From: an uncultured Thiothrix sp.
GTDB taxonomy: Bacteria > Pseudomonadota > Gammaproteobacteria > Poriferisulfidales > GCA-002705445
Direction of reading: 5' to 3'
NCBI GenBank assembly: GCA_902559815.1
Contig: CACEJE010000001.1
Coordinates: forward strand, 1 to 36,464
DNA length: 36,464 nucleotides
The notes under the pieces were generated by a model. That model searched no databases and was not told the DNA's origin. It saw only the letters and a program-made list of their open reading frames with translations. The translations under genes and the position numbers were made by a program. Positions 11,000 through 32,534 of the stretch are shown here, one piece after another (the stretch's first letter is position 1; each line of letters begins with the position of its first letter).

Positions 11000-11869
11000 C
11001 TATTTTTTATATCCTAATTTTTTCAAAAGCCCTTCTAAAACTTCTAAATTACTATATTTAAATATAATTTTGCCATTTTTTTTTGATGAAGAATAATCTA
11101 TTTGGGCATAAACCCCATATTTTTCACTTAATTGCTTTTCAATACTCAATAATTGTGAATCCTTCGCTTTTTTTGAGGATTTTCTCAATACGGGTGTTTT
11201 TTTTGCATTTACAAGATTTTCTACATCCCTAACAGATAATTTTTGATTGACTATCTTGTCAGCAAAAAGTTTTTGTGAGTTTTTAGCTAAGGGTAACAAA
11301 GCCCTTGCGTGACCCATATCAATCTTTTGCTCGGACAATAGTTTAATTACATATGTATCCAACGATAATAGCCTTATCAAGTTTGAGATATGTGATCTTG
11401 ATTTACCAGTCTTCTTAGATAAACTTTCTTGAGTAAACTTAAATTTCTTGATCAGTTTTTCTAACCCTATAGCTTCTTCGATCGGATTTAAATTTTCTCT
11501 TTGAACGTTTTCTAGTAAAGCATATATAGCAGCAGATTCATCTCCCACAAGTTTCACAATTGCAGGAACTTTCTTATGCCCCAAAATCTTTGCAGCTCTT
11601 AACCTCCTTTCACCGGCAATAAGTTCATACTCATCTTGTTTTGTTTTTCTAAGCAATATTGGCTGTATAATTCCTTCCTCTCTTATAGACTCAACCAGAG
11701 ATTTAAGACTTTCTTCATTAAAATTTGTTCTTGGCTGATATGGGCTTACACCAATCTTTGAAACTTCTATTTCTTGAGAGGCTTCATTGGCTTTTACTTT
11801 TTTAGCTTTTGACGAGCTAAAAAGAACTTCAACCCCTTTATTTCCTAAACCACTTTTTCTTTTTGCCAT
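11000..11869 (-). CDS. parB: Chromosome partitioning protein ParB
   Basis: YQPRTNF, ELIAGERRLRAAKILG, ENVQRENLNPIEEA, HTH FTQESLSKKTGKSRSHISNLIRLL. Confidence 0.97.
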   Translation of the reverse strand: MAKRKSGLGNKGVEVLFSSSKAKKVKANEASQEIEVSKIGVSPYQPRTNFNEESLKSLVESIREEGIIQPILLRKTKQDEYELIAGERRLRAAKILGHKKVPAIVKLVGDESAAIYALLENVQRENLNPIEEAIGLEKLIKKFKFTQESLSKKTGKSRSHISNLIRLLSLDTYVIKLLSEQKIDMGHARALLPLAKNSQKLFADKIVNQKLSVRDVENLVNAKKTPVLRKSSKKAKDSQLLSIEKQLSEKYGVYAQIDYSSSKKNGKIIFKYSNLEVLEGLLKKLGYKK

Positions 11870-11876
11870 TTTGTTG

Positions 11877-12647
11877 TTACCTTGCTTTTGAAATTTTTAC
11901 CAGCTCACCTGCAAGAGCTAAGTATGACATAGAGCCTTTAGAACCTCTATCATAACTAATTATAGACGTACCGTGACTTGGAGCTTCTGCTAAGCTAACA
12001 TTTCTAGGAATTATTGTCTTTAATACATCTTTCCCAAAATGGTTTTTTAATTCCGAAGATACATCTTGCGCCAAATTATTTCTTGGGTCATACATAGTTC
12101 TTAAAATACCCCCAACCTTTAAGCTTTCATTCACCGACATCTTAATTTTATCAATTGTTTCAAGTAGAGCTGTAAGGCCTTCGAGCGCAAAATACTCGCA
12201 TTGTGTTGGAATTATCACAGAATCTGAAGCAGCTAAAGAATTCACTGTTAATATATTTAGTGATGGTGGGCAATCAATTATTATAAAATCATAATCTTTT
12301 TTAATTTCTGAAATTACCGTTTTTAAAATTAACTCTCTATCGTTATTTTCTAATAGTTTTACTTCAGCTAATGTAAGAGACTGATTTGATGGTATTAAAT
12401 CGTAACCTTCTTCTGCTTTCTTCAATATGCTTTTTATGTTTGTATTATGGTCTAAAAGCAAATCTGCTGAAGAATACTCCAGCTCATATTTATTAACACC
12501 TGATCCCATGGTTGCGTTACCTTGAGGATCCATATCTATTAATAATACATTTTTATTATTTAAAGATAACGCTGCAGATAAATTAACGCTCGTAGTTGTT
12601 TTACCAACTCCGCCTTTTTGATTACATATAGAAAAAATCGTACTCAA
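11877..12647 (-). CDS. parA: Chromosome partitioning ATPase ParA
   Basis: ICNQKGGVGKTTTSVNLSAAL deviant Walker A; LLIDMDPQGNAT. Confidence 0.97.
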   Translation of the reverse strand: MSTIFSICNQKGGVGKTTTSVNLSAALSLNNKNVLLIDMDPQGNATMGSGVNKYELEYSSADLLLDHNTNIKSILKKAEEGYDLIPSNQSLTLAEVKLLENNDRELILKTVISEIKKDYDFIIIDCPPSLNILTVNSLAASDSVIIPTQCEYFALEGLTALLETIDKIKMSVNESLKVGGILRTMYDPRNNLAQDVSSELKNHFGKDVLKTIIPRNVSLAEAPSHGTSIISYDRGSKGSMSYLALAGELVKISKAR

Positions 12648-27960: not shown

Positions 27961-28587
27961 ATGAGAAAAATATTGGTTTTAAATTCAAAGGGTGGTTCGG
28001 GAAAGACAACAATAGCAACAAATTTAGCTAGTTTTTATGCATCTATCGGTAAATCTGTGGCCCTAGTTGACTTAGATGTACAAGAAAGTTCTATGAGTTG
28101 GCTCAAAGCACGTTCTTCGGCAAAACCACCAATAATTGGTATTAAGGGACATGGGGGAAAAATTCGAAGAGGTGTAGATTATAAGATAATTGATGCTCCA
28201 GCTGGGCTAAACGGAGCAGCATTAACAAAAGTTTTGAATATGGCTGAAAGTGTAATTATACCAGTACTTCCTTCGCCTATTGACATTAGAGCTGCATCAG
28301 ATTTTATTAAAAATATCAAGAAACATTCAAGAGTTGTAAAGAAAAAGTCAAAGGTAGCATTAGTTGCAAACAGGGGCAGAGATTACACTAACGTTTACTG
28401 GGAGCTTGATGACTTTTTAGCAAGCCAAAAAATACCATTTTTGACTATGATTAGGGACAGCCAAAACTATATTCGCGCTGCTGAAAAAGGTTTAGGTATT
28501 TATGAAATGGGCCCATCAGCAACTGAGCTAGATAGAGATTATTTTGAGCCAATAATAGATTGGTTAAATAGCAAAAAAAGTAGATAG
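27961..28587 (+). CDS. Orphan ParA/MinD-superfamily ATPase (208 aa)
   Basis: NSKGGSGKTTIATNLASFYA deviant Walker A, VALVDLDVQESSMSWL, DYKIIDAPAG; no parB partner nearby. Confidence 0.88.
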   Translation: MRKILVLNSKGGSGKTTIATNLASFYASIGKSVALVDLDVQESSMSWLKARSSAKPPIIGIKGHGGKIRRGVDYKIIDAPAGLNGAALTKVLNMAESVIIPVLPSPIDIRAASDFIKNIKKHSRVVKKKSKVALVANRGRDYTNVYWELDDFLASQKIPFLTMIRDSQNYIRAAEKGLGIYEMGPSATELDRDYFEPIIDWLNSKKSR

Positions 28588-28601: not shown

Positions 28602-28910
28602 CTATTTTGCACAGCCATTGTCATCACATTTAACCACAAATTTTTCTGATTTTTTTACACAAATAACTTCGTAAAGAAGAGAGTCGCTATTCTTGGTTTC
28701 GATTATTTTTGCACTTGTGCCTGCAACACATCCATTTTTTGCTAAATAATCTTTTAAATTAGTCTTGCCAACTTTTGTGCTTTCTTTTGATGTTTCTTGA
28801 TATTCTTTCGTGCCTTCTTTTAACCAATCTTTAATGCTTGATGAATCAGAAGAACACCCTAAAAAATTTAGAGTAATAAAAGATATTAAAATTAAATTTG
28901 AAGTTTTCAT
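28602..28910 (-). CDS. Putative lipoprotein with C-terminal Cys-rich module
   Basis: MKTSNLILISFITLNFLGCSSD lipobox (FLGC); C-terminus LYEVICVKKSEKFVVKCDDNGCAK. Start at 28910 overlaps the upstream gene's stop as ATGA. Confidence 0.75.
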   Translation of the reverse strand: MKTSNLILISFITLNFLGCSSDSSSIKDWLKEGTKEYQETSKESTKVGKTNLKDYLAKNGCVAGTSAKIIETKNSDSLLYEVICVKKSEKFVVKCDDNGCAK

Positions 28911-29743
28911 TGAAGAACCTCGCAACCATTTGGCCCACAATCATAGATCATTCTTTTAACTTTGATAATGCAATTCACTTCATAAAGCTCCCTATTCTTT
29001 GTTTTTTTGACAAGATTAATTTCACTCAATTTATGACACGAGTGTTCATCTATTAAGCTTTCAGCAACTTTGCCTATGTACCTTTTTTTGTTAGTTTTAG
29101 TAATTTCAATTTTATCACTTAGTAAATCTTTTTCTAAAATAGAGTTTTGTGGCTTTTCAGTTAAGTCAGATACATCAATATCAATCTTAGATTCTGAGCT
29201 TGCTGTTGATGAAGAAATAGATGAGTCTTCGTTCTTTGCATAGCTAATGTCTCCTTTTTTGAAGGCTATTAAATGACTCCTTAAAAAATTATTAAAAGCA
29301 TAAAATTCTCTATCTATGAAATTGCTGCAATTTTTTGGGCATACCGCTTCTATTTGTATTATATTTTTTTTACCACTAGGAATTTTAGTAACCTCAAAAC
29401 TAATTTTATCCGCTTTCTTTTTGTTTGGAAAAGAGGTTGTTTTTAAGAAATTATTAGTATTTGTTTTAAGGTCGCCTCTATAATCTGATTTTTCCGTTAG
29501 CCATTCTTTGGCAACATCCCAGAGTAAATTACATTCCGTTGTGGTTGCACATTTTGCAAAATCTTTTGCTCCATCTTCTATTTCAAACCCGCCAAGCTCA
29601 TCATCATAGCCGTCAAAACTTTCATCTAAAACGTTGTTACTTACAGAATTATCAAAATCAAATTTAGGTAAGTTGGGCAGCGATGAACAACTAGTCATTG
29701 CAACGCTAATAATTAAAATAAATACTTTATAGTGTAATTCCAT
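28907..29743 (-). CDS. Putative lipoprotein with C-terminal Cys-rich module (278 aa)
   Basis: MELHYKVFILIISVAMTSCSS lipobox-like N-terminus; C-terminus LYEVNCIIKVKRMIYDCGPNGCEVLQ similar to the downstream neighbour. Confidence 0.75.
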   Translation of the reverse strand: MELHYKVFILIISVAMTSCSSLPNLPKFDFDNSVSNNVLDESFDGYDDELGGFEIEDGAKDFAKCATTTECNLLWDVAKEWLTEKSDYRGDLKTNTNNFLKTTSFPNKKKADKISFEVTKIPSGKKNIIQIEAVCPKNCSNFIDREFYAFNNFLRSHLIAFKKGDISYAKNEDSSISSSTASSESKIDIDVSDLTEKPQNSILEKDLLSDKIEITKTNKKRYIGKVAESLIDEHSCHKLSEINLVKKTKNRELYEVNCIIKVKRMIYDCGPNGCEVLQ

Positions 29744-30193: not shown

Positions 30194-31510
30194 ATGAAAA
30201 TAAAAATCTTAGCAAGTATGCTAGCCGGAGCATTGGCCATGCTTCCTGTTACTGCAAACGCAGGCTGGGGCGGTGGTGGTGTTGGACCTTACGGGGATCC
30301 AATCACAATCTACGGATGGCAAAACCATACTTATGAAATCGTAGAGTCAGGTGCGGAAGGTTCGCAAGTTGACAGAACTATGATTAATGGTAACGCTGGT
30401 AACATTGGTTTTCTTGGTTTCGTTGATACAGGAATCGAAGGCTTAAAAGTTACATGGCGTTGTGAACAATTCACATACATGAACGACTATGCTGGTACAG
30501 GTGGTTGGTGTAACCGTAACTCAAAAGTTGGTATTTCAGGATCATTTGGTGAAATTATGTTCGCTAACTGGTTATTACCTTATAACGAAATGGTAGCTGG
30601 ATGGGTTGACCCATGGTATGACGCAGGTACAGCATCTCATACAAACATTATGGGATCTGTTGGTGCATACACAATCTTCTATAACTTAGGAGACTTTGGT
30701 TCACAAACATTCGTATCATATAGTGCGTATGGCGGAATCTATAATATGGGTTTCAACAGACGTCAAGAAGAAATCCTACAATATATGGGTTCAACAGGAA
30801 AAGTATCATACAGATTCGCTATGACAGCTGATAATAAAACAGATGCTACATCAGCTAGAGGAAGTGTGAAAACAGACCCTGTAATTTACTCAATGGGTAT
30901 CGCATATAGTGATGGTCCTTTCTGGGGCGCTGTAACTTATCAGAAACATGAAGAGTGGGCAGCAACAAAACTTGACGGTGCTACAATGTCTGACTCAGAC
31001 GCAGAATCATATCGTATAGCTGGTCGTTACATCGCTGACTTAGGTGGTGGAGCAAGCTTAACTTTATCTGCAATGTGGGAAAATGTTGAGTACAACTTTG
31101 ATAACACAACAACACCAGGCGCTGCGTTACAAGACTTTGGTTTTAGTAGCTCAACATTTGCTGGTGGTACTGCAAACACAGACGTATCTTTTGATCGTGA
31201 CGCATGGTTAATATCTGGTAAATTTGCTCCAGGTGGAAACTTTGACTTCCGTTTCATGTATGCAGAAGCTGATGAGCTAGATGTTACAGCTACAAGTTTA
31301 TCAACTGATAACTCTGCACAAACTGGTGCTGACACAACATTATTTGGTGTGTTCTATGCATTAGGTGATTCAACAGAGTTGAATATTTCATACATTGAAG
31401 TTGAAAACGACGCATATGGTCAATATGGTACTGGTATTAGTGCTTTACATTCTGGTACTTTAAATAACCAAGTTGAAGTAATTCAGTTTGGTATATTAAC
31501 AATGTTCTAA
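30194..31510 (+). CDS. Outer-membrane porin
   Basis: Signal peptide MKIKILASMLAGALAMLPVTANA; alternating beta-strand pattern (GNAGNIGFLGFVDTGIEGLKVTWRCEQ, YSMGIAYSDGPFWGAVTYQKHEEW); terminal Phe (QFGILTMF). Confidence 0.88.
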   Translation: MKIKILASMLAGALAMLPVTANAGWGGGGVGPYGDPITIYGWQNHTYEIVESGAEGSQVDRTMINGNAGNIGFLGFVDTGIEGLKVTWRCEQFTYMNDYAGTGGWCNRNSKVGISGSFGEIMFANWLLPYNEMVAGWVDPWYDAGTASHTNIMGSVGAYTIFYNLGDFGSQTFVSYSAYGGIYNMGFNRRQEEILQYMGSTGKVSYRFAMTADNKTDATSARGSVKTDPVIYSMGIAYSDGPFWGAVTYQKHEEWAATKLDGATMSDSDAESYRIAGRYIADLGGGASLTLSAMWENVEYNFDNTTTPGAALQDFGFSSSTFAGGTANTDVSFDRDAWLISGKFAPGGNFDFRFMYAEADELDVTATSLSTDNSAQTGADTTLFGVFYALGDSTELNISYIEVENDAYGQYGTGISALHSGTLNNQVEVIQFGILTMF

Positions 31511-31631: not shown

Positions 31632-32534
31632 ATGAATGCAAAAAAATTTTATAATTTAGCAATAGGATTGTTATCACTACTAACTTCTTTTAATGTTCAT
31701 TCGGCCTGTAGCAAGGATGATATAAATTATTATTTAGAAAAAGGATTTACTACTGATCAGGTTACAGCACTATGTAGTGATGAAATAATAAGCTCTAAAA
31801 AAGAAGAGACTTATAGAGCTTTTTCAGATGAATATGCTGATGAGCAAGATGAAGAATACGTTAGAAAAATGAGAATAGAAAGACAGGTATTTTTTAAATC
31901 AGCGCTAGGGGCAACAAACGTAAAAATTCGAGGTGACAAGTTATCTTTTAATACTTACGAGTGTGCCAAAGACGGTCTTGCAAAACCAGGATCAGATTTA
32001 AATAAAAAAGGATGTGCGGTAGTATTATCAATAGTCAATTTGTCAAAAGTAAACGTGTCAGAAAAAGAATTTAAAGAAAAAGTTTTCTTTGGGTCAAGAA
32101 GCATTTTAGTTACTGGCGATGTCGTTAATAAAATTATCGGAGGCATGGAAGGATTATCAGATTATGATGCTAATGTATTAAAGAAAAAAGTTATGGCTAG
32201 AATGAGTAAAACAGAAGGCAGTGTTCTAGTTCCAATAAAAAAAGGGCTTAATTTTGATTATGCTCTAGAAACATTTAAAGAGATAGTCGCTTTTCACAAA
32301 GGGCTCTTAGATAAAAAGAAACTAGGACAAAATTTGGGTGGGCAATTAGAAGTAGATGATTTTGATTTATCGCAAGATGCCGAATACATAATTGAAGAGA
32401 AAAAATCTGAATTAAATTTTTCAAACGAAAAAGATGACAGTATAGATGGAACTATAGTTTTTGATGATATGCCATTAGATGAGAGTAATACGACAAATGA
32501 TAATGACGAAATTCCAGAGAGTGTTTTTGATTAA
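31632..32534 (+). CDS. Hypothetical secreted protein with N-terminal Cys-bounded helical motif and acidic tail
   Basis: Signal peptide ending NVHSA, then CSKDDINYYLEKGFTTDQVTALC; C-terminal DDSIDGTIVFDDMPLDESNTTNDNDEIPESVFD. Confidence 0.8.
   Translation: MNAKKFYNLAIGLLSLLTSFNVHSACSKDDINYYLEKGFTTDQVTALCSDEIISSKKEETYRAFSDEYADEQDEEYVRKMRIERQVFFKSALGATNVKIRGDKLSFNTYECAKDGLAKPGSDLNKKGCAVVLSIVNLSKVNVSEKEFKEKVFFGSRSILVTGDVVNKIIGGMEGLSDYDANVLKKKVMARMSKTEGSVLVPIKKGLNFDYALETFKEIVAFHKGLLDKKKLGQNLGGQLEVDDFDLSQDAEYIIEEKKSELNFSNEKDDSIDGTIVFDDMPLDESNTTNDNDEIPESVFD

Follow-up and report, generated by a model that had tools for sequence, protein, structure and literature searches.

Envelope proteins related to LpA

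The closest described counterparts of the gene pair analyzed here, LpA–LpB, are proteins that share a domain with the N-terminal part of LpA. phrog_16082 and its plasmid and prophage relatives contain, like LpA, a domain with the signature C-x5-C-x3-W-x2-A-x2-[WF]-[VIL] (LpA residues 59-137), and the relatives read in this study also carry a lipoprotein signal, as LpA does. Proteins with this domain occur in several contexts: (i) small lipoproteins encoded by Enterobacteriaceae plasmids and Mycetohabitans megaplasmids, (ii) a lipoprotein adjoining the integron integrase of a Shewanella plasmid, (iii) proteins of lambdoid E. coli phages, encoded where a hok-type gene lies on one side and rem/ydfU on the other (of 5426 complete E. 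coli genomes, 250 contain close copies), (iv) a LysM protein of Acinetobacter plasmids, (v) a lipoprotein of genome G082 whose second domain is NTF2-like and (vi) the C-terminal part of DUF4124 proteins. Examples from outside the order of the studied bacterium (L074:2977-3381, L115:4974-5366, L070 and L071) thus present the domain either alone or fused to DUF4124, LysM or NTF2-like partners. No Pfam or NCBIfam model exists for it, and in its various contexts it carries only hypothetical annotation.

Each of these groups differs from LpA in architecture. The phrog_16082-type proteins stop after the domain, and LpA adds a disordered linker and a four-cysteine module. In the periplasmic DUF4124 (PF13511) proteins the same domain is placed behind DUF4124 and a long charged spacer, while LpA lacks both DUF4124, which a Pfam search found neither in LpA nor in its orthologue, and the coiled-coil-like spacer. 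The Neisseria DUF4124 protein TfpC is needed for type IV pili (PMC7593972), which shows that envelope assembly can depend on DUF4124 proteins and is uninformative on the LpA-type domain. In the Acinetobacter LysM protein (WP_086378351.1) and phrog_4186 the domain follows a LysM motif; unlike LpA, these show no lipoprotein signal and no four-cysteine module. The Francisella lipoprotein Flpp3 (PDB 6pny/2mu4) is, like the N-terminal part of LpA, a small alpha/beta lipoprotein domain, retrieved by Foldseek with probabilities of 0.91 and 0.84 but weak E-values (0.045 and 0.2), at 10-11% identity and without a sequence match; this resemblance of a predicted fold is a weak lead rather than an established relationship.

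Organization of the LpA–LpB gene pair

The window, i.e., the whole analyzed stretch of 36,464 nucleotides of DNA, encodes LpA and LpB in two overlapping genes, whose neighbors are a ParA-like gene (27961-28587, plus strand) and a divergent porin gene (30194-31510, plus strand). The following features were distinguished:

28907..29743, minus strand: LpA coding sequence, predicted lipoprotein of 278 aa (open reading frame and orthologues)
29687..29743, minus strand: LpA signal peptide and lipobox (C19, invariant in 15 orthologues), from the sequence
29249..29581, minus strand: LpA N-terminal domain, residues 55-165, with Cys65, Cys71, Cys135 and Cys139 (profile matches)
29075..29248, minus strand: LpA linker, residues 166-223, predicted to be disordered (pLDDT 26-52)
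28910..29074, minus strand: LpA C-terminal four-cysteine module, residues 224-278, with C236, C258, C269 and C274
28907..28910, minus strand: ATGA overlap of the LpA stop and the LpB start, suggesting translational coupling
28602..28910, minus strand: LpB coding sequence, predicted lipoprotein of 102 aa
28854..28910, minus strand: LpB signal peptide and lipobox (C19, followed by Ser in every case)
28605..28772, minus strand: LpB C-terminal four-cysteine module, with C61, C84, C95 and C100

A preliminary description of this DNA had placed both minus-strand open reading frames here, with an ATGA overlap and a lipoprotein signal in each, and all of this proved correct. LpB starts with the ATG at 28910; the TTG at 28940, which opens a longer form of LpB in the list of open reading frames, is not the conserved start. 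A signal peptide and a lipobox with its cysteine at position 19 are present in both proteins, and C19 is invariant in the 15 LpA and 9 LpB sequences compared. LpA and LpB are accordingly predicted lipoproteins, and we infer their lipidation and location.

Domain architecture of LpA

The acidic tether that follows the lipid-bearing cysteine of LpA is poorly conserved (43% identity within the genus). Identity rises to 61% in the N-terminal domain (residues 55-165) and reaches 84% in the C-terminal module (residues 224-278), which is the most conserved part of the protein; the linker between them (residues 166-223) is 49% identical within the genus and 10% identical between families. In the AlphaFold2 model the N-terminal domain consists of a strand, a helix, four strands and a second helix (block pLDDT about 80-93), the linker is disordered, and the tail is folded, with moderate confidence (pLDDT about 62-71), into a helix and four strands. 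For the LpB tail, too, a helix followed by four strands is predicted (block pLDDT 77-89), so that the predicted topologies of the two tails agree. All eight cysteines of mature LpA and all four of mature LpB are invariant among the orthologues. Of 20 genomes of the order, 19 (that of the window among them) have a DsbB gene, which makes periplasmic disulfides in LpA and LpB plausible, and the topology of the model, taken by itself, suggests the pairs C236-C258 and C269-C274 in the LpA module.

By profile comparison, the N-terminal domain of LpA is a member of a widespread, unnamed family of proteobacterial periplasmic domains. LpA residues 59-137 match phrog_16082 (E 2.4e-4), and hhalign aligned the LpA domain with the set of outside proteins at E 7.5e-16. 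A profile built from the outside proteins only, with LpA excluded, retrieved LpA as the sole match in its genome (E 7e-12) and also singled it out in the other LpA-bearing genomes sampled. The family is recognized by a C-x4-6-C pair followed by Trp or another aromatic residue, and by a second cysteine pair past the last strand; in LpA these are Cys65, Cys71 and Trp75, and Cys135 and Cys139, all invariant in the order and aligned with the outside family. LpA is not a single-domain lipoprotein of about 130 aa, since a further 113 residues, including the four-cysteine module, are present, and it is a fusion variant of the phrog_16082, or C-x5-C-x3-W, domain family. It had been stated that the N-terminal parts of LpA and LpB differ greatly; LpA is indeed the longer one, but its second, putatively disulfide-bearing domain had been overlooked.

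A shared four-cysteine module

The two C-termini had been reported to align with the pattern C-x(21-22)-C-x10-C-x4-C, and this spacing was borne out: C236-x21-C258-x10-C269-x4-C274 in LpA and C61-x22-C84-x10-C95-x4-C100 in LpB, conserved among the orthologues. In a two-sequence BLASTP comparison the proteins matched at E 8e-6. Local alignment of the tails gave a score of 78, compared with 26 +/- 5 (maximum 50) for 2000 shuffles and at most 65 for shuffles that left the cysteines in place. Comparison of the LpA and LpB orthologue alignments by hhalign yielded a probability of 91% and E 9e-7 over 49 columns. The profile of LpB orthologues matches the LpA tail in all LpA-bearing genomes of the order; when run on 20 genomes of the order, it picked out LpB where this is present and otherwise the LpA tail (E 1e-5 to 3e-3), with the exception of a weak match in G003 (E 0.012). 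Reciprocally, the LpA and LpB profiles each recover the other protein in the same genomes. As judged from these sequence comparisons, the C-terminal modules of LpA and LpB are homologous. The shared region is short (about 50 residues) and its identity low (about 22-28%), as might be expected if two unrelated small secreted proteins had come to the same cysteine pattern by convergence or chance. This is extremely improbable, because the real score exceeds those of all shuffles, including the ones with fixed cysteines, and each profile picks out the other family alone in the genomes; chance similarity is ruled out by the BLASTP, hhalign, profile and shuffling results taken together.

Outside the order the module was not encountered. 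Searches of Pfam, NCBIfam and PHROGs returned no match for it, those of Pfam and NCBIfam with complete LpA and LpB gave nothing meaningful, and no convincing PDB match was obtained by sequence or by fold, including a Foldseek search with LpB. With three profiles, a sequence search of the PDB was empty for LpA and for its N-terminal domain; for LpB it gave only weak matches, or low-complexity-type ones in the spacer. Among viral structures the best Foldseek match of LpA was weak (E 0.012) and fell on an unnamed 132-aa protein. LpB was not found on plasmids, nor was the module seen in phages or plasmids. A search of 369 genomes of the class detected it in this order only; outside the order the hits were noise, the best one (E 0.005) lying in a broken frame. 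Its confinement to the order and the lack of database matches point to a small family specific to this order, which LpA carries in two bacterial families and of which LpB provides a second copy in one of these.

Distribution and synteny

An alignment-based scan of genome contigs recovered LpA where a single-sequence scan had found nothing. LpA is encoded in nine genomes of the same genus, the window included (the eight others at 52-59% identity), in a sister genus (G011), where the same end of LpA lies at a contig edge, and in six genomes of a second family (25-28% identity). The latter are Porisulfidus-type, sponge-symbiont relatives, two of them titled Candidatus Porisulfidus and the rest being untitled Gammaproteobacteria MAGs of that group. 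The locus order is gpmI - LpA - xthA - prlC - gyrB in the second family and gpmI - secreted protein - porin - LpA - LpB - parA-like - xthA - prlC - gyrB in the genus of the window. LpA is vertically inherited at this fixed housekeeping locus in both families. Two assemblies (G008 and G009) yielded no LpA; as xthA is likewise missing from both, this is uninformative and probably reflects assembly loss. A weak match in G009 (L021) was dismissed as chance, since it falls in a peptidase-like open reading frame, identified by eye from the sequence. In the two genomes of a third family (G014 and G016) xthA is present, and LpA was not found beside it.

LpB directly follows LpA in nine genomes, all belonging to the family of the window, and the pair is syntenic within that family. 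The junction is ATGA in eight of them and TAATG in one. LpB was not found in the second-family genomes. In one genome of the window's genus (G007, 98% complete) LpB has been lost, with the ATGA start and an open stub of 19 codons left, as read from the sequence; LpB is thus dispensable in one species. The view of the pair as a two-gene system is too strong, because neither the Porisulfidus-type genomes nor G007 have an LpB to accompany LpA.

Several neighboring genes deserve separate mention. In three same-genus genomes (L006, L007 and L008), LpB is separated from the parA-like gene by an inserted photolyase-like gene. The ParA-like ATPase (27961-28587, plus strand) is the second one of the window; its best NCBIfam match, ParA_partition, scored 132 bits, under the cut-off of 180, no ParB is adjacent to it, and a separate chromosomal ParA/ParB pair is located at 11000-12647. 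This gene is missing from the LpA locus of the second family. The secreted 300-aa protein (31632-32534, plus strand), with a CxKxDIxYYLEKGFTxxQVTALC start and no Pfam family, is conserved across the order (18 genomes including the window); it adjoins the porin in the window's genus and has another genomic location in the second family. The porin itself (30194-31510; L002-L009) has a signal and first ~30 residues that are nearly identical throughout the genus, while the residues beyond fall into different types, a contrast that points to swapped domains or a strongly constrained start.

Origin of LpB and alternative explanations

LpB probably arose from the 3' end of LpA by partial tandem duplication of the module, which would have gained its own lipid anchor. 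The preliminary description had spoken of duplication of a small disulfide module, and the homologous tails fit this, but neither the direction of the event, which we infer, nor the choice between duplication and fusion is decided by the module tree. This tree (unrooted, 58 columns) separates LpB, with full support, from the LpA modules of both families. Its shape is also what would be seen if a stand-alone four-cysteine lipoprotein had come first and a copy of it had joined a lipoprotein with the N-terminal domain, giving LpA and leaving LpB as the surviving original; the occurrence of the N-terminal domain alone in many bacteria agrees with such a fusion. We regard it as possible but doubtful: it requires the loss of LpB in the Porisulfidus lineage, while duplication within the window's family requires no loss, a stand-alone module gene was not found outside that family, and the tree that favors it is short and without a root. 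Duplication is preferred because LpB is seen in one family only. The age of the event is another matter: the modules are only about 24-27% identical and LpB is about equally distant from both LpA groups, so that an ancient duplication with later loss, or the fusion, would fit as well as a recent partial duplication.

Two other readings bear on LpA itself. The match of its N-terminal domain to phrog_16082, and the relatives flanked by hok and rem/ydfU in lambdoid E. coli phages, beside the integron integrase of the Shewanella plasmid and on other plasmids, could indicate that LpA–LpB descends from a mobile phage-derived lipoprotein cassette (serving, e.g., superinfection exclusion) that was later fixed in the chromosome. 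This is unlikely, given the vertical inheritance of LpA at a housekeeping locus of two families, its absence from the phage records and viral contigs searched, and the failure to find the C-terminal module in phages or plasmids; that LpA is a present-day phage gene is ruled out by the locus and by the lack of copies in the phage and viral collections. Even less credit can be given to LpA being a divergent or second BamC, accessory to outer-membrane protein assembly. The divergent porin adjoins LpA in the window's genus, and the fold of the N-terminal domain weakly matches those of small alpha/beta proteins, the lipoprotein Flpp3 among them; against this, 19 of 20 genomes of the order encode a genuine BamC (PF06804) at another place, Porisulfidus-type genomes do not have the porin next to LpA, and BamC-like folds are missing from the top 50 PDB matches. 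The lack of a PF06804 match in LpA and the separate BamC genes exclude LpA as BamC or its replacement.

Proposed role of the pair

In the explanation that we favor, with a probability of about 0.6 for its three parts together (the domain architecture of LpA, the partial tandem duplication that gave LpB, and docking of the module to an envelope partner), LpA would be an outer-membrane-anchored lipoprotein in which a short acidic tether leads to a disulfide-bearing periplasmic domain, and a disordered linker joins this domain to the order-specific module, folded as one helix and four strands with two disulfides. LpB would consist of a lipid anchor, a short spacer and the module only, and be translated straight after LpA through translational coupling. 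The module may dock to an envelope partner, which could be the module itself or a protein other than LpA and LpB. LpA would display the module on a long tether alongside the generic domain, and LpB would contribute more copies of it, or altered ones, at the membrane in a fixed ratio. The combination of an anchor in the membrane, a flexible linker and a slowly evolving, cysteine-stabilized tip fits a periplasmic docking module, and the strongest constraint within the genus, falling on the C-terminal module (84% versus 61% and 49%), fits a binding role; the Foldseek search of the module, which found no convincing match, adds no structure in support of docking. A more specific version, in which streamlined marine bacteria have in this module a small fold of a new type, bound to an abundant envelope partner (e.g., the adjacent porin) that an LpA–LpB complex controls, with LpB tuning this partner by competition for the site, seems improbable.

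LpA and LpB make up a small cell-envelope gene pair that has no name yet, not a system of a new kind, and LpA is better described as a known but unnamed envelope domain with a lineage-specific disulfide tail. The pair newly defines a small cysteine-rich module, retained by marine genomes of about 1 Mb that have been stripped of most accessory genes. Through its N-terminal part, LpA ties together an unnamed domain found across prophages, plasmids, an integron locus and the ends of DUF4124 proteins, and a named model of this domain would re-annotate many envelope proteins.
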